A stretch of DNA of 23,923 nucleotides. Source: a virus. Under the pieces are notes generated by a model. The model saw only the letters and a program-made list of their open reading frames with translations. It was not told the DNA's origin and ran no database searches. The stretch is from the IMG/VR virus record IMGVR_UViG_3300042376_000681, positions 1 to 23,923 of that record. One strand, written 5' to 3'. A program made the translations under genes and the position numbers. Every line of letters begins with the position of its first letter. Position 1 is the stretch's first letter. Positions 13,356 through 22,273 of this stretch are shown in pieces.

Positions 13356-13526
13356 ATGTGCCAATGCAGAACCGTCGAACGCAGAACGCCAATCGAAGAC
13401 CGCGACTCGCACAAGTGCGACAAGTGCGGCAAGCCGATGGATCATGAGCCGGATGACCCGGATACTGGCGTGAGCGAATGCGTCTGGTACTGTGCCGCGT
13501 GTGACGACGCAGCCGACAACAACTAA
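13356..13526 (+). CDS. Small zinc-ribbon protein (56 aa)
   Basis: ATG 13356 lies 7 nt after AAGGAG. The product has 56 residues with Cys-x-Cys at the start, Cys-Asp-Lys-Cys-Gly-Lys-Pro near residues 21-27 and Cys-Val-Trp-Tyr-Cys-Ala-Ala-Cys near 42-49. Two Cys pairs of that type are a zinc ribbon or treble-clef scaffold, used for nucleic acid or protein contact. The link between them is acidic (Asp-Asp-Pro-Asp-Thr). Longer frames upstream have no ribosome site. The leader carries repeat copy 2. Function beyond metal binding is unknown. Confidence 0.6.
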   Translation: MCQCRTVERRTPIEDRDSHKCDKCGKPMDHEPDDPDTGVSECVWYCAACDDAADNN

Positions 13527-13531
13527 CCCAC

Positions 13532-13558
13532 GACCGCCAGGCTAACGCTGACGCGGTC
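13532..13558 (+). other. Hairpin E in ERF leader
   Basis: GACCGC (13532-13537) pairs with GCGGTC (13553-13558), and CAG with CTG inside, with a 2-nt bulge and a 7-nt loop. It is loosely like the 39-nt family, though the GGTTTC end is replaced by GTCATTTC. Confidence 0.4.
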
Positions 13559-13562
13559 ATTT

Positions 13563-13609
13563 CGGCGGCGTTCTCCGTTGGTGCGGTTGAACGTTGTTAA
13601 GAGCCGCCG
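13563..13609 (+). promoter_or_regulatory. Candidate antiterminator pairing in ERF leader
   Basis: CGGCGGC (13563-13569) pairs perfectly with GCCGCCG (13603-13609). The same bases 13603-13610 form the left arm of the terminator at 13603-13645, so the two structures exclude each other. The enclosed part can form its own hairpin, CGTTC (13569-13573) with GAACG (13589-13593). Confidence 0.45.
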
Positions 13610-13645
13610 CGTGTCGCCGTGCCTTGTTGGTGCGGCGGCGTTTTT
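13603..13645 (+). terminator. Intrinsic terminator directly before the ERF gene
   Basis: GCCGCCGC (13603-13610) pairs with GCGGCGGC (13632-13639) and is followed by GTTTTT. The loop is 21 nt, so it is less tight than a standard terminator. GAGGAG, the ribosome site of the ERF gene, follows the T-run at once. Such placement is typical of attenuation rather than of operon end. Confidence 0.55.
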
Positions 13646-13658
13646 GAGGAGCAATCGA

Positions 13659-15720: not shown

Positions 15721-15975
15721 ATGGAAATCTTGATCGTTGGCATTCTGTTCTTCGGGTTGATCGGTGTCATGGCGGCGACGGCACGCGGCTGGAATCAGGC
15801 CGTGGGCTTTCTAGCTGGTGCGATCCTTGGCCCGTTATCTGTGCTTCTGTTCTTCGTGAGCGGCGTGACACGCAAGCCCGCCGGCGAGCCGATGAAGGTC
15901 TGCGGCCAGTGTGCCGAGCATGTGCGTCCCGAGGCGAAGGTGTGCCGGTATTGCGGGCACAAGTTCGACTGGTGA
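15721..15975 (+). CDS. Membrane protein with C-terminal zinc ribbon (84 aa)
   Basis: ATG 15721 follows TAAGGAG that includes the upstream stop. The product has 84 residues: two hydrophobic segments (about residues 1-20 and 26-47, the second Gly/Ala-rich), a short basic link with Arg-Lys-Pro, and a C-terminal Cys-Gly-Gln-Cys...Cys-Arg-Tyr-Cys-Gly-His ribbon from residue 61. That form, two helices plus a cytoplasmic zinc ribbon, is found in many small host and phage membrane proteins of unknown job. It could sense or bind a partner at the membrane. It sits just before the region 4 leader. Confidence 0.6.
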   Translation: MEILIVGILFFGLIGVMAATARGWNQAVGFLAGAILGPLSVLLFFVSGVTRKPAGEPMKVCGQCAEHVRPEAKVCRYCGHKFDW

Positions 15976-15993
15976 AACGTGGTGGCGTATACT
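15964..15993 (+). promoter_or_regulatory. Promoter-like site of the replication leader
   Basis: TATACT at 15988-15993 with TTCGAC (18-nt gap) or TCGACT (17-nt gap) before it. It overlaps the end of the upstream gene. The predicted RNA start near 16000 falls in the left arm of a 12-bp inverted repeat. Confidence 0.4.
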
Positions 15994-15996
15994 CCC

Positions 15997-16112
15997 GTGC
16001 TTGCGGAGTCAGTTGATGCTCGATACCACTCACAACAAATCACCGGCCCCGATCCGTGGGAACACGCTCAACGCATGCTCCGCAAGCACACGGATTCGGG
16101 CCGGTTGTTTTT
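15997..16112 (+). ncRNA. Structured leader or small RNA with terminator
   Basis: Arm A (15997-16008) has a perfect 12-bp partner at 16078-16089. Between them, 16043-16058 pairs with 16089-16104 over 15 of 16 positions (one mismatch, one G-U) and is followed by TTGTTTTT, an intrinsic terminator. GTTGA (16012-16016) can also pair with TCAAC (16068-16072). The order of arms is interleaved, as in a pseudoknot or competing-hairpin switch. A separate small RNA of about 110 nt or an attenuator of the next gene are both possible. It is not a tRNA. Confidence 0.5.
16043..16112 (+). terminator. Strong intrinsic terminator directly before the replication gene
   Basis: The 16-position GC stem is 16043-16058 with 16089-16104, loop 30 nt, then a T-rich run 16105-16112. 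The ribosome site GGAG of the next gene starts 1 nt after the run. A terminator in this spot only makes sense if read-through is controlled or if this ends a small RNA. Confidence 0.6.
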
Positions 16113-16124
16113 GGAGTGCCACCG

Positions 16125-16868
16125 ATGGCAGGTGATTGGATCAAAGTACGGACGCGGCTGCTGGAGGACCCGGCAGTATTCCGCATGTCGGACATGCTCG
16201 GTCTGAGCGTGGAGGCCGTTGGCGGGCACCTGATCCGCGTCTGGTCATGGGCCACCGATCAGGTCATCGAAGGTAACGCTCCCGGCGTTACAGAAAAGCA
16301 TCTCGACCGTATCGCGTGCGTTACAGGAATGGGTGCGGCCCTTGCGTGTGTGGGGTGGATCACCTTCACCGACACGGGGGCGACATTCCCGAACTGGGAC
16401 CGGCATCTTGCGCAAGGTGCGAAGGCTCGGGCACTTACGGCATTGCGGGTACAGAAGAGCCGTAACGGTGCCAGCGTTACCGATGCGTTACCAGAGAAGA
16501 GAAGAGAAGAGAAGAGTGTAAATACACCCCCTAGCCCCCAAGGGGATGGGGTGGCGGCACCTGCACCGAAGGCCGAGAAGAGCCCTCCGAAACTGATCCC
16601 GGACTTCTCCCCCCAGTTCCTCGCCTTCTGGAACGCATACCCAACCGTCCGCCGTCAGGACAAGCAGAAGTGCTGGAAGCGATGGCAGGCCGACTTCCTT
16701 GACCGGGAGAAGGCTTCTGCGGTTGTGACCGAGGGCCTGCACCGCTGGAAGAAGTGCCACCAGTGGACGAAGGATGGCGGGCAGTTTGTGTGCAACCCGT
16801 ACCGCTGGCTGATGAACCGGATGTATCTTGAGAATCCCCCAACCGCCCCAATCAAGGAGTTCGAATGA
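16125..16868 (+). CDS. Replication initiator / replisome organiser-like protein
   Basis: ATG 16125 follows GGAG; an in-frame GTG at 16056 lies inside the terminator and is rejected. The product has 247 residues. The N-terminus (Trp-Ile-Lys-Val-Arg-Thr-Arg-Leu-Leu-Glu-Asp, then helices ending Gly-His-Leu-Ile-Arg-Val-Trp) is the winged-helix opening of phage replication proteins. Residues 120-170 are a charged, Pro/Ala-rich link. From residue 178 the tail reads Phe-Leu-Ala-Phe-Trp-Asn-Ala-Tyr-Pro, then Trp-Lys-Arg-Trp and a final Tyr-Arg-Trp-Leu-Met-Asn-Arg, typical of the C-domain that meets helicase or primase. It likely binds the origin and loads the helicase encoded next. Confidence 0.62.
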   Translation: MAGDWIKVRTRLLEDPAVFRMSDMLGLSVEAVGGHLIRVWSWATDQVIEGNAPGVTEKHLDRIACVTGMGAALACVGWITFTDTGATFPNWDRHLAQGAKARALTALRVQKSRNGASVTDALPEKRREEKSVNTPPSPQGDGVAAPAPKAEKSPPKLIPDFSPQFLAFWNAYPTVRRQDKQKCWKRWQADFLDREKASAVVTEGLHRWKKCHQWTKDGGQFVCNPYRWLMNRMYLENPPTAPIKEFE

Positions 16869-17383
16869 GTTTCAACCAACCGCCCGACCACGAAGTAGCG
16901 ATGACCGCCGCGATGGTGCTTTCCCCGACCGTCCGCAAGTGGGCATCCGAAATGGGTGTGACCAGCCAAGCGTTCACGCACGGCGATTGCAAGTACGTCT
17001 ACGACATCATCGTCGGGGGTGGGTCATTCGATGCCACCCTACTCCAAGAATGCCGGGAGAGGCCATTCACGGGCCCGCAAATGGGTCTCTGGAGGAACCT
17101 TGAAGACGCGGTGCTGTATTACTCGGCTCCATGCTGGACCGATAACCATGGATTGCTTATGGCGTTCCAGCGTGGGGCGAACATGACGTTCCACCGTTGG
17201 GGCATCCCGGTTCTTTCGTGGTGCGTCAAGATGCTCGGGGAAGGAACCGATAAGCGGATTGTGCGGCGAGCGGCTGAGGTGCTGGCGTTCGCGGCGTGGG
17301 ACTTCAAGGGCGATGGGGTGTGGATCTACCAGCCGGGCGAGGAACTGCGGGTGAAGTGGGACAGCTACGCGGGGGTGCAATGA
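16865..17383 (+). CDS. DnaB N-terminal-domain-like protein (separate gene)
   Basis: ATG 16865 overlaps the previous TGA (ATGA). The product has 172 residues, helical. The start, with Pro-Pro-Asp-His-Glu-Val-Ala-Met and a later Tyr-Val-Tyr-Asp-Ile-Ile then Ser-Phe-Asp-Ala-Thr-Leu-Leu, follows the DnaB N-domain pattern (Pro-x-x-x-Glu start, a helix with Tyr/Ile, then Asp at the strand break). The end, Arg-Ile-Val-Arg-Arg-Ala-Ala-Glu-Val-Leu-Ala, is like the exit helix of that domain. It lacks any Walker motif; the ATPase is the next gene. This reading is moderate: the domain is weakly conserved. Confidence 0.45.
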   Translation: MSFNQPPDHEVAMTAAMVLSPTVRKWASEMGVTSQAFTHGDCKYVYDIIVGGGSFDATLLQECRERPFTGPQMGLWRNLEDAVLYYSAPCWTDNHGLLMAFQRGANMTFHRWGIPVLSWCVKMLGEGTDKRIVRRAAEVLAFAAWDFKGDGVWIYQPGEELRVKWDSYAGVQ

Positions 17384-18357
17384 CACACGACGACAGCAAC
17401 GATGCTCCATGGTTCAGCGACTTCAAGTACGAAGCGAACAAGGCAGCGGAGCCAGCCAAGAGCGGCTACCAGATCCTGAAGGAACGCTTTGACGCAATCG
17501 CGTCTGGAAAGATGCGGGTTCTTCCGACACCGTGGGCGATGATCAACGCCGATGTACGCCTCAACCTGCCCGGCACGCTTAACGTCATTTGCGGCGACCC
17601 AGGTTCGGCCAAGTCTTTCTTCACGCTGCAACTGTTCATGTTCGCCATTGCGTCAGGCGAGAAGGCCAGCTTGTACGAACTGGAGGAAACCAAGGGGTGG
17701 CACATGGCCCGTGCTTTGGCCCAGTTGAGCGGCGACCCGCGAGTTACCGATGTGGTATTCGTCCAGCAGAACGCCGACCGCGTGTCGATGCTTTCCGACC
17801 GCTGGCGGGCCGAACTGGAAATGCTCGGCGGGTCGATGATTTGCCCCGATGGGCACGCGGTGCCATCTGACGAGGTGATTCAGTGGGCCGAACGCGAATG
17901 CAAGGCTGGTGCGAGGATCATCGGCATCGACCCTATCACCGCACTCCTTCCGTCAGAGAAGCCATGGATTGACGACCAGCACATGATGACGCACCTGCGG
18001 CGGATCGTGGACAGGTACCACGCATCCGTGTGGATCGTGACGCACCCGAAGAAGGGGAGGAAGTTTGAAATCTCCATGGATGTCATGGCGGGTGGTGCGG
18101 CTATGTCTCGGTTCGTGAACAACGTGCTGTGGCTGGAGCGGCCAGATAAGCCGGAGACGCATGTTCTGTACGGAGGCACGACCATCGAGGCCGACCGCAT
18201 CCTGCACATCTGCAAGTGCCGCGACGGGTTGGCGGCGGGTCGCAAGCTCTCGATGAGCCTACGGCGTGACAACCTCACGTTCGTTGAGCATGGGTGGATC
18301 AAGGAGCGGCGGGACGGAGACACGACCGAGGACATGGCAAAGGAGTTTGGGCTATGA
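17380..18357 (+). CDS. DnaB-type RecA-fold ATPase (helicase C-domain-like)
   Basis: ATG 17380 overlaps the previous TGA; a longer frame begins inside the upstream gene. The product has 325 residues. Walker A is Gly-Asp-Pro-Gly-Ser-Ala-Lys-Ser (72-79). A Tyr-Glu-Leu-Glu-Glu block (99-103) stands where DnaB proteins have their catalytic Glu. Walker B is Ile-Gly-Ile-Asp (181-184), and Ile-Val-Thr-His-Pro (219-223) is the next motif. The fold is that of DnaB or RepA hexameric helicases, which unwind the fork. It has only about 50 residues before the ATPase core, so the N-domain is missing and may be supplied by the gene before it. Single-domain RepA-like ATPases are the alternative. Confidence 0.72.
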   Translation: MTHDDSNDAPWFSDFKYEANKAAEPAKSGYQILKERFDAIASGKMRVLPTPWAMINADVRLNLPGTLNVICGDPGSAKSFFTLQLFMFAIASGEKASLYELEETKGWHMARALAQLSGDPRVTDVVFVQQNADRVSMLSDRWRAELEMLGGSMICPDGHAVPSDEVIQWAERECKAGARIIGIDPITALLPSEKPWIDDQHMMTHLRRIVDRYHASVWIVTHPKKGRKFEISMDVMAGGAAMSRFVNNVLWLERPDKPETHVLYGGTTIEADRILHICKCRDGLAAGRKLSMSLRRDNLTFVEHGWIKERRDGDTTEDMAKEFGL

Positions 18358-18566: not shown

Positions 18567-19363
18567 AGCCAACATGGGAACGCGGGAACGTGCGGCTGTA
18601 CCTTGGCGACACTCTGGAAATCGTGCCGCAACTTCCAGAGGGATTTGCCGACGCGATTGTAACGGACCCGCCATTTTCAAGCGGTGGAGCCTTCCGTGGC
18701 GACAGGACACAATCGACGATAGCAAAGTATGTGCAGACGGGAACAATGACGCAACGAACAGACTTTGGCGGAGACTCACGCGACCAGCGATCATTCTTCG
18801 CGTGGTGTTCGCTTTGGATGTGTGCTGGTCTGCGGCTGTGTTCTCCCGGTGGGGTGCTTGTGTGCTTTACCGATTGGCGGCAACTTCCGGTGATGACGGA
18901 TTCTGTGCAAGCAGGAGGTTGGGTTTGGAGGAACTTGGCTACATGGTGGAAGCCGGGATGCCGGATGCAGCGTGGTCGGTTCAGCTCATCGGCTGAGTAT
19001 GTGATTTACGCAACAGCAGGGGCACACGCATCGGACGGTGAAGAGTCTCCGCAAAACGTGCTTTCGTGTGCCACGCTTGCTGGCGACGATAAAGAACACA
19101 TTGCAGAAAAGCCCGGTGCAGTTATGGATTGGTGTGTTGGAGTGACGCGGCCCGGTGCTGTGGTTATCGACCCATTCATGGGTTCTGGTGCTACCGGAGA
19201 GGCTTGCCTGCGTAGTGGAAGGTCATTTGTTGGAATCGAGAAAGACCCAGCATGCTTCGAAATCGCCGTGCGGCGGATCGACAAGGCTATTGACGCTGGT
19301 GCGTTGTTCGCACCCGTACCGCCAGCCGTGCGGCAAGCGAATCTGTTTGGGGGTGACGCATGA
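18563..19363 (+). CDS. DNA N6-adenine or N4-cytosine methyltransferase (beta class)
   Basis: ATG 18563 overlaps the upstream TGA (ATGA). The product has 266 residues. Catalytic motif IV is Asp-Pro-Pro-Phe (35-38) near the start, and motif I is Asp-Pro-Phe-Met-Gly-Ser-Gly-Ala-Thr (203-211) near the end, followed by Phe-Val-Gly-Ile-Glu (222-226). That order (IV before I) is the beta class of amino-methyltransferases, which use S-adenosylmethionine. The middle part, about 60-160, would hold the target recognition domain. No restriction enzyme lies next to it, so the use is likely self-protection, replication marking or gene control. The target base cannot be fixed from sequence. Confidence 0.83.
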   Translation: MKPTWERGNVRLYLGDTLEIVPQLPEGFADAIVTDPPFSSGGAFRGDRTQSTIAKYVQTGTMTQRTDFGGDSRDQRSFFAWCSLWMCAGLRLCSPGGVLVCFTDWRQLPVMTDSVQAGGWVWRNLATWWKPGCRMQRGRFSSSAEYVIYATAGAHASDGEESPQNVLSCATLAGDDKEHIAEKPGAVMDWCVGVTRPGAVVIDPFMGSGATGEACLRSGRSFVGIEKDPACFEIAVRRIDKAIDAGALFAPVPPAVRQANLFGGDA

Positions 19364-19866
19364 AGGCCCGCAACCTGCTCGACACAACACCGATCCCAGA
19401 GGACGGATGCACGGTCAAACCGTCGCCGCTGCCGATGGGGCCGGACCTGCCGAGGTGGATGGAGCATCCGAAGAAGACCATCGCAATGGCTAGGGCGGCG
19501 GAACTGATGTACGCCGTGCGGTACTTCCAGACCCGCGAGATGCAGGCACGGGCCGACCGTGAGCATTACATCGGGGACGGAAACCACATGGCCGTAAGCA
19601 TGCACAACGCGTGCATCGTGGCTGGCACGACCATCGAGCATGTCACAGCGAAATCAACACTCGGGACGCTGCTGCGTGGCGGCGACCGGGTAGCCAAACG
19701 ACGCGAGGTGTTTGCGATCCTGCGGCGGGCAGGGTACTCGCTGCCGGAAATCGCGGCGGCGTTTGGCACGAATCACTCGACCGTTATGACATCACTGAAA
19801 GGAGTCCGCAATGTTGAACCCAAGCGTACGTGGGCAGGACCGTACCAGGCTCAGGACGCAGCTTGA
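19360..19866 (+). CDS. Protein with DnaA domain IV-like helix-turn-helix
   Basis: ATG 19360 overlaps the methyltransferase TGA (ATGA). The product has 168 residues. Residues 113-149 carry Lys-Arg-Arg-Glu-Val-Phe-Ala-Ile-Leu then Ser-Leu-Pro-Glu-Ile-Ala-Ala-Ala-Phe-Gly and Asn-His-Ser-Thr-Val-Met-Thr-Ser-Leu, matching the DnaA signature Ser-x-x-x-Ile-Gly-x-x-Phe-Gly-x-x-x-His-Ser-Thr-Val. In DnaA this is the DNA-box binding domain. No AAA+ part is present. The first 100 residues are helical with no motif I know. It may bind the phage origin or a host DnaA box. The last 56 bases also encode the start of the next gene. Confidence 0.7.
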   Translation: MKARNLLDTTPIPEDGCTVKPSPLPMGPDLPRWMEHPKKTIAMARAAELMYAVRYFQTREMQARADREHYIGDGNHMAVSMHNACIVAGTTIEHVTAKSTLGTLLRGGDRVAKRREVFAILRRAGYSLPEIAAAFGTNHSTVMTSLKGVRNVEPKRTWAGPYQAQDAA

Positions 19867-21715: not shown

Positions 21716-21954
21716 GCGACAACGACAACCTGGCGAAGTGGACCGCGTTCGCACGGTCAACCGACCCCGAGGCCGTGGGGCACATGCTCAACGAACTGGC
21801 GGGGGAGATTGGGAGGCTGCGGGGCGTGTGCCGCCTTTCCAGCGATTACGTGTGCGACATTCGCGGTCACACTACGCCGCGTTCCGTCGAATGGACGATG
21901 CTCAACAACTTGGCGAAGGATCTGGCGAACGAAGGGAGCAAGGATGGGAAGTGA
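21712..21954 (+). CDS. Small helical protein (80 aa), unknown
   Basis: GTG 21712 overlaps the upstream TGA (GTGA). The product has 80 residues, helical, with Leu-Asn-Glu-Leu-Ala-Gly-Glu-Ile-Gly-Arg-Leu-Arg, a Cys pair 14 residues apart (about 40 and 48) and a final Leu-Ala-Lys-Asp-Leu-Ala-Asn. No family recognised. It is coupled to the ABA-sandwich gene and overlaps the next gene by 11 nt. It might be a partner of the coiled-coil proteins around it, which is inference. Confidence 0.5.
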   Translation: MSDNDNLAKWTAFARSTDPEAVGHMLNELAGEIGRLRGVCRLSSDYVCDIRGHTTPRSVEWTMLNNLAKDLANEGSKDGK

Positions 21955-22273
21955 ACACGACAAGTACGCCGAGCAGGTGTTAGCGTGGGCTGGCACCGGA
22001 AACCCAAAGGACGTTGGCGAGGTTGTTGCAAAGATGCGTGACCGCATCACGGCCTTGGAGGAAGCGGTGCGGGTGCTTGCAGAGGAAACATCCGCTTGGC
22101 GGGCGTGGGAGCGGTCATGCTCCGCAATGGCGGTGCAAGTGCTGAACAAGCAGGACAGCCCCGAGTTGAATGAGACGGCTGATAGGCAGTGGATTGAGGC
22201 CGGTTCATTCCGTGTGAACGCGACAAACGCAAACCCAATCGCGGCAGAGGCCGTGAGGAAGGCGGGGGGATGA
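21944..22273 (+). CDS. Coiled-coil protein with AWxAW motif (109 aa)
   Basis: ATG 21944 lies in the end of the previous gene, after GGGAGC. The product has 109 residues: a helical half with Ile-Thr-Ala-Leu-Glu-Glu-Ala-Val-Arg, then Val-Leu-Ala-x-Glu-x-x-Ala-Trp-Arg-Ala-Trp (44-55) and a less ordered end with Thr-Asn-Ala. The block is shared with the gene at 20297 (8 of 12 identical), and a Thr-Asn-Ala also occurs late in both. They are probable paralogues of a small phage family. The role is not known. The next gene overlaps by 4 nt. Confidence 0.55.
   Translation: MGSEHDKYAEQVLAWAGTGNPKDVGEVVAKMRDRITALEEAVRVLAEETSAWRAWERSCSAMAVQVLNKQDSPELNETADRQWIEAGSFRVNATNANPIAAEAVRKAGG

Follow-up and report, generated by a model that had tools for sequence, protein, structure and literature searches.

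Read-through into a replication initiator gene is decided by antisense RNA in the plasmid attenuators of pT181 and pIP501, where the antisense RNA comes from the opposite strand. IsrK/STnc1160 of the Salmonella prophage Gifsy-1 belongs to the same Rfam clan as C4, the antisense RNA (RF01695) of phages P1, P7 and N15. The structure of C4 and its processing by RNase P have been described (PMC5320573), and Weinberg et al. have entries for 'c4 antisense RNA' as well as 'c4-a1b1', found in proteobacteria and phages (PMC2864571). The CI RNA of P4 pairs with seqA upstream and with seqC downstream and terminates transcription of the replication genes in the lysogen (PMC4825925). For IsrK/STnc1160, a promoter and a small RNA with an intrinsic terminator are reported, and the complementarity between the leader and the downstream RNA is likened to CI (PMC4825925).

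The locus that we compare with these systems lies in a 23.9-kb uncultured viral record, which we analysed over its whole length of 23,923 nt and refer to as the window. An earlier note on this DNA had placed a TATACT box, a perfect 12-bp repeat and, interleaved with the repeat, a 16-position terminator stem in front of the replication genes. We found all three, and the region reads as follows:

15965-15993, + strand: predicted sigma-70-type promoter, from hexamer matches, with the -35 TCGACT at 15965-15970 and the -10 TATACT at 15988-15993
15997-16008, + strand: arm a, GTGCTTGCGGAG, the a1-like target at the predicted 5' end of the RNA; perfect complement of 16078-16089
16012-16019, + strand: second, b1-like leader arm, GTTGATGC, which in the fold of the truncated RNA pairs with GCTCAAC at 16066-16072 with one bulge
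16043-16058, + strand: 5' strand of the closing (terminator) stem, which pairs with 16089-16104
16066-16072, + strand: b'-like antisense segment GCTCAAC inside the terminator loop, placed as is b' in C4 of P1, P4 and N15
16078-16089, + strand: a'-like antisense segment, CTCCGCAAGCAC, which adjoins the 3' strand of the closing stem, base 16089 being common to both
16089-16112, + strand: 3' strand of the terminator stem (16089-16104, from sequence and pairing) and the T-run TTGTTTTT (16105-16112)
16113-16116, + strand: ribosome-binding site GGAG of the initiator gene, whose ATG is at 16125
16125-16868, + strand: replication initiator of 247 aa, the first gene behind the putative switch (PHROG 2509, E 1.8e-41), a distant relative of Rac YdaU
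17296-18357, + strand: DnaB-like helicase gene, a replication gene downstream of the initiator

The two arms of the repeat are fully complementary, and the terminator stem consists of 8+8 pairs, one of them G.U, around a single C.C mismatch. The hexamers of the promoter are separated by a 17-nt spacer and match at 9 of 12 positions; the RNA is expected to start near 16000. The terminator had been placed 1 nt before the ribosome site; its position before the initiator stands, and the gap disappears, as GGAG directly abuts the T-run. Our built-in terminator scan overlooked this hairpin because its 30-nt loop exceeds the limit of the scan. The third helix (16012-16019/16066-16072), the location of an arm at the predicted transcript start and the link to C4 are absent from the earlier note.

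Upstream of the element lie the Erf and YqaJ recombination genes and a small zinc-ribbon protein (PF13248, 15670-15975), which ends about 25 nt before the predicted RNA start and whose last codons are overlapped by the promoter -35. Downstream of the replication genes, 19360-19866 gives a weak match to a DnaA C-terminal/HTH domain (E 2.3e-5, under the cut-off). The leader before the Erf gene (13505-13650) ends in an 11-bp hairpin with a T-run, its overall fold is unremarkable (z -1.1) and we found no crossing-helix element in it; the suggestion that the leaders of the recombination and replication genes share a control is thus not borne out.

In the window, folding of the hairpin 16037-16112 gives -35.1 kcal/mol (z = -4.5), a value that none of 200 shuffles reached, and the crossing-helix score of the 350-nt upstream region lies above that of all 60 shuffles. 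The computed fold in which the leader pairs with the loop reaches -34.7 kcal/mol, as against -31.0 kcal/mol for the terminator stem, and an RNA that ends just before the 3' strand of the terminator folds into a long leader-loop helix (-32.5 kcal/mol). Since the energies of the two folds are close, the two states appear balanced, and the leader helix could form first.

Initiator relatives were gathered from viral contigs, annotated phages and genomes, and loci are given L numbers where they need to be told apart. Crossing helices with differing arm sequences occur in 11-12 distinct phages, or 15 with weaker cases (among them L009, L039 and L043). These members were gathered mostly through the initiator protein, which by itself accounts for part of the association with replication. 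In several of them, the order is arm a, stem 5' strand, a' and stem 3' strand, with a' touching the stem 3' strand (a gap of 0 in the window and in most members). Directly before the initiator, arms a/a' are GCTTGTCGGG/CCGGACAAGC in L005, GCGAGTCCG/CGGACTCGC in L007, GCTAGTCCG/CGGACTAGC in L008, GTGGTGT/ACACCAC in L014, CTGAGAAA/TTTCTCAG in L028, CTGACACT/AGTGTCAG in L044 and TAGAGAGAA/TTCTCTCTA in L099; L007 and L008 differ by a clean compensatory change. The element lies further upstream, with other genes intervening, in L217 (a Planctomycetota genome whose version, of 20 bp, precedes the initiator gene by 540 nt), L114 (about 1.2 kb upstream), L039, L043 and L009. Most members carry a T-run terminator on the closing stem; L007/L008 and L044 have no T-run. 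The earlier note had named relatives that lose both stems as a sign against the element; distinct relatives retain both through compensatory change, and L004 retains them too. In L004 (4358-4488; also L079), the RNA stands before an initiator that shares about 80% identity with the window protein in its C-terminal part and has an unrelated N-terminal domain; by sequence, this is a swap of the initiator domain with the RNA kept.

A kissing-hairpin variant occurs in L024 (4880-4985) and, at about the same place, in L029; there, a separate 5' hairpin carries GGTCGAG in its loop, the complement of CTCGACC in the loop inside the terminator hairpin. The element was absent from the 16 upstream regions scanned in named phages with related initiators, in most of which a coding gene reaches right up to the initiator. 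Phage records yielded no useful close DNA relatives of the window.

These relatives bear on the reading of the locus as a leader switch that a phage or host protein or a ligand reads in order to control read-through or translation of the initiator, for example in initiator autoregulation. Two folds as close in energy as -34.7 and -31.0 kcal/mol, and a terminator directly before the ribosome site, are what such a switch would offer. However, arm, loop and linker sequences are almost wholly different between distant members, leaving no conserved binding site to be seen, and L004 keeps the RNA despite the unrelated N-terminal domain of its initiator. We therefore regard a protein- or ligand-read switch as improbable.

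How far the crossing helices exceed chance was assessed across the members. Among 189 nonredundant upstream regions, 24 had a crossing-helix score that no more than 1 of 60 shuffles attained, a count in which a few are expected by chance and several look like chance; the expectation of about 1.4 given by the script counts only regions with any hit and is too low for all 189. The score of a member's own a:a' pair averaged 22.7, compared with 10.3 (sd 3.4) for a' against the leaders of other members, and 5 of 182 crossed cells were as high as the own score, although the members were partly chosen by this same score. In the five near members that can be aligned, 85.9% of cells are paired (74.2% in shuffles and 34-42% when slid), 11 pairs show two-sided change as against 4.5 in shuffles, and the covariation of 0.341 (0.141 shuffled) was matched by 0 of 500 shuffles. 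When all eight members were aligned with MAFFT, the helices came out misaligned; these counts leave that alignment out. At several positions of the crossing helix, the members between them show all four types of Watson-Crick pair.

Two further tests are free of the bias from member selection. First, the second, nested leader-loop helix has a combined Fisher p of 3e-7 over the members. It is weak in the window itself (GTTGA/TCAAC, p 0.14), longer in relatives, and clear in L005 as well as in L004 (CATGTCTG/CAGACATG), L007 (CATGCTGA/TCAGCATG), L028 (ACATGAC/GTCATGT) and L114 (GACCCGTGAAG/TTTCACGGGTC). Second, matches to the -10 hexamer are most frequent 3-6 nt before arm a, where 7-8 of 14 members have one; at this offset, the window, L004, L005, L007, L011 and L217 match TATAAT at 5 of 6 positions and L044 at 4 of 6.

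An ordinary terminator with chance complementarity is an explanation that scans like ours invite, since they do yield chance hits on control strands and shuffles, but the 11 pairs with two-sided change, the 0/500 shuffles and recurrence in at least 11 distinct phages leave it hardly any credence. On these comparisons the element is conserved as crossing helices beyond chance, above all because related phages show this arrangement again with arms of other sequence. That the element acts as DNA, with single-stranded hairpins serving as a replication start or primosome site, would fit its location at replication genes and the primosomal annotation of the initiator family in several phages. However, the closing stems hold 21 G.U (G.T as DNA) against 3 A.C on this strand, an excess inflated by the scoring, and the promoter at a fixed offset, the T-runs in most members and the C4 match of L044 (below) also speak for RNA. 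We consider a DNA-level element very improbable.

The known systems give the RNA its closest parallels. In the C4 loci, which the Rfam model finds in P1, P4 and N15 with 68.8, 74.9 and 78.8 bits, a' (CTGTCAA, TTCTCAC and GTTGAGAA, respectively) stands immediately ahead of the closing stem's 3' strand, as it does in the window. The leader complements a1 and b1 come in the same upstream order in both, and b' of P1, P4 and N15 lies in the inner loop, where the window has its b'-like segment with the weaker pairing. Upstream, a1 is at -82/-160/-75 and b1 at -69/-144/-60 in P1/P4/N15, with the downstream complements a2 at 0/+4/+7 and b2 at +28/+35/+33, whereas in the window family we see the upstream target alone, at about -46 and -31. 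The leader target of P4 is 144-160 nt upstream, as compared with about 30-46 nt in the window. C4 further differs in its UUCG-type hairpin, its processing by RNase P and its downstream target a2b2, whereas in the window a T-run terminator sits on the closing stem. By inspection of its sequence, the window RNA has neither a UUCG-type hairpin inside the closing stem nor a CCACC-like 3' end for RNase P, and no downstream a2b2 complement rose above chance in any of the 14 members.

With respect to function, P1 C4 acts on an antirepressor operon and not on replication. P4 CI is an antisense RNA from the leader of a replication operon (PMC4825925) whose locus falls within Rfam C4; unlike the window RNA, it is followed by seqC, and its closing stem bears no T-run. 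An antirepressor operon is also what IsrK controls, and its terminator lies between the leader RNA and the CI-like RNA, whereas the window terminator is the closing stem itself. Unlike pT181 and pIP501, with their opposite-strand antisense RNA, the window would carry its antisense segments on the same strand and in the same transcript. In the papers that our literature search covered, we found no RNA of this kind before a phage initiator gene.

A search of the window against Rfam gave no match, the C4 model giving none up to E 5-10, and at the gathering score there was none in 20 further initiator loci. L044, however, matches the C4 model over its full length with 40.7 bits (E 1e-8 for its record), just under the cut-off of 45 bits. 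The same RNA as in L044 occurs in L105 (1903-1984), with a UUCG hairpin and a CCCACC end, before a replication initiator; it might connect C4 with the window type. R1, a model built on the five near members, finds only its own members and their weak reverse-strand echoes and misses both L044 and classical C4, so descent from C4 is not established. In 294 genomes of the phylum Planctomycetota, the R1 and C4 models found nothing, a negative that is uninformative for want of a positive control. By layout, the window RNA would work like C4 and P4 CI; from its sequence we call it a variant of the C4/P4-CI kind and keep it outside the C4 family, since our tests for a match to the model, for a UUCG hairpin and for a downstream target were all negative. 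An HDV-like ribozyme has a similar order of helices and was rejected, as the RNA lacks both P4 and a J4/2 strand and has a predicted promoter of its own at its start.

Within the window, a search for a second copy of the target gave short matches only, all inside coding regions. One of these regions holds a near copy of arm a at 22073-22084 (1 mismatch) and, about 45 nt from it, an exact 12-nt copy of part of a' (CATGCTCCGCAA) at 22116-22128, with no obvious stem between the two. Elsewhere, the 34 nt at 21760-21793 resemble the stem and loop of the RNA (16042-16074) with at least 28 matches and two 1-nt gaps. They lie in an apparently coding region whose frame the gaps break, and the resemblance could be due to chance or be a trace of recombination.

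We think it reasonably probable that in this element a C4/P4-CI-like antisense RNA and an intrinsic terminator are fused into a self-limiting transcription attenuator before the replication genes. The transcript, its termination, the release of free a' and b' and the direction of the switch are what we infer. An RNA that starts at about 16000 would carry the target a, then b1, then a hairpin with b' and a' in its loop, whose closing stem doubles as the terminator. In a fresh transcript, with little free antisense RNA present, a' and b' would be bound in cis by a and b1 while the 3' strand of the terminator has yet to be transcribed. This cis helix of about 19 bp (the -34.7 kcal/mol fold) would trap the 5' strand of the terminator in its loop, hinder termination and allow read-through into the initiator and helicase genes. 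Terminated and possibly processed RNA would be the source of free b' and a', which would bind b1 and a of new transcripts in trans, let the terminator form and turn the replication genes off. In the full RNA, a' is taken up by its cis partner, so a step that frees it would be needed, either processing or a kinetic window in which binding precedes refolding. The earlier note had offered a small RNA of about 110 nt or a switch that gates replication; both parts would hold, not as alternatives but as two faces of one P1/P4-like design in which the antisense RNA targets its own leader.

A different view takes the product as a stand-alone stable small RNA, its 5' and 3' ends sealed by a coaxial pseudoknot of both helices at once, that acts elsewhere on a host or phage target and has the replication gene merely as a neighbour. 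Such an RNA would have its own promoter at a fixed offset and a terminator at its end, as predicted here; a' abuts the stem as coaxial stacking would have it, and L217, L114, L039, L043 and L009 place the element upstream of intervening genes. However, the leader holds complements of both a' and b', an arrangement that makes it a target in C4 systems, and the arms vary freely between phages, which fits a self-target and not a fixed outside target. The element also always lies in the replication region here, though the loci were fetched through the initiator. On balance, we find a stand-alone RNA unlikely.

Under the attenuator that we favor, the window phage can probably switch off its own replication genes through the RNA. 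It may have an immunity role in this phage, but we found neither an integrase nor an HTH_3 repressor in the record of the window or in those of its four closest members, all possibly fragments; four member records (L039, L044, L114 and L011) do hold integrases or a serine recombinase.

More tentatively, the element may be a self-contained attenuator whose single short transcript serves as target, antisense repressor and terminator together and which times or shuts replication in many phages, including a Planctomycetota prophage; it could have come from C4 once the downstream target was lost, or have arisen independently. Relatives that have a crossing helix and not a sequence in common escape RNA-family searches, and present RNA models fail to recognize the version carried by the uncultured phages. 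If our reading is true, swapping an arm pair should redirect which RNA represses which leader, which would amount to immunity specificity, and RNA-based control of phage immunity and replication would extend from P1, P4 and N15 to a wide set of uncultured phages.
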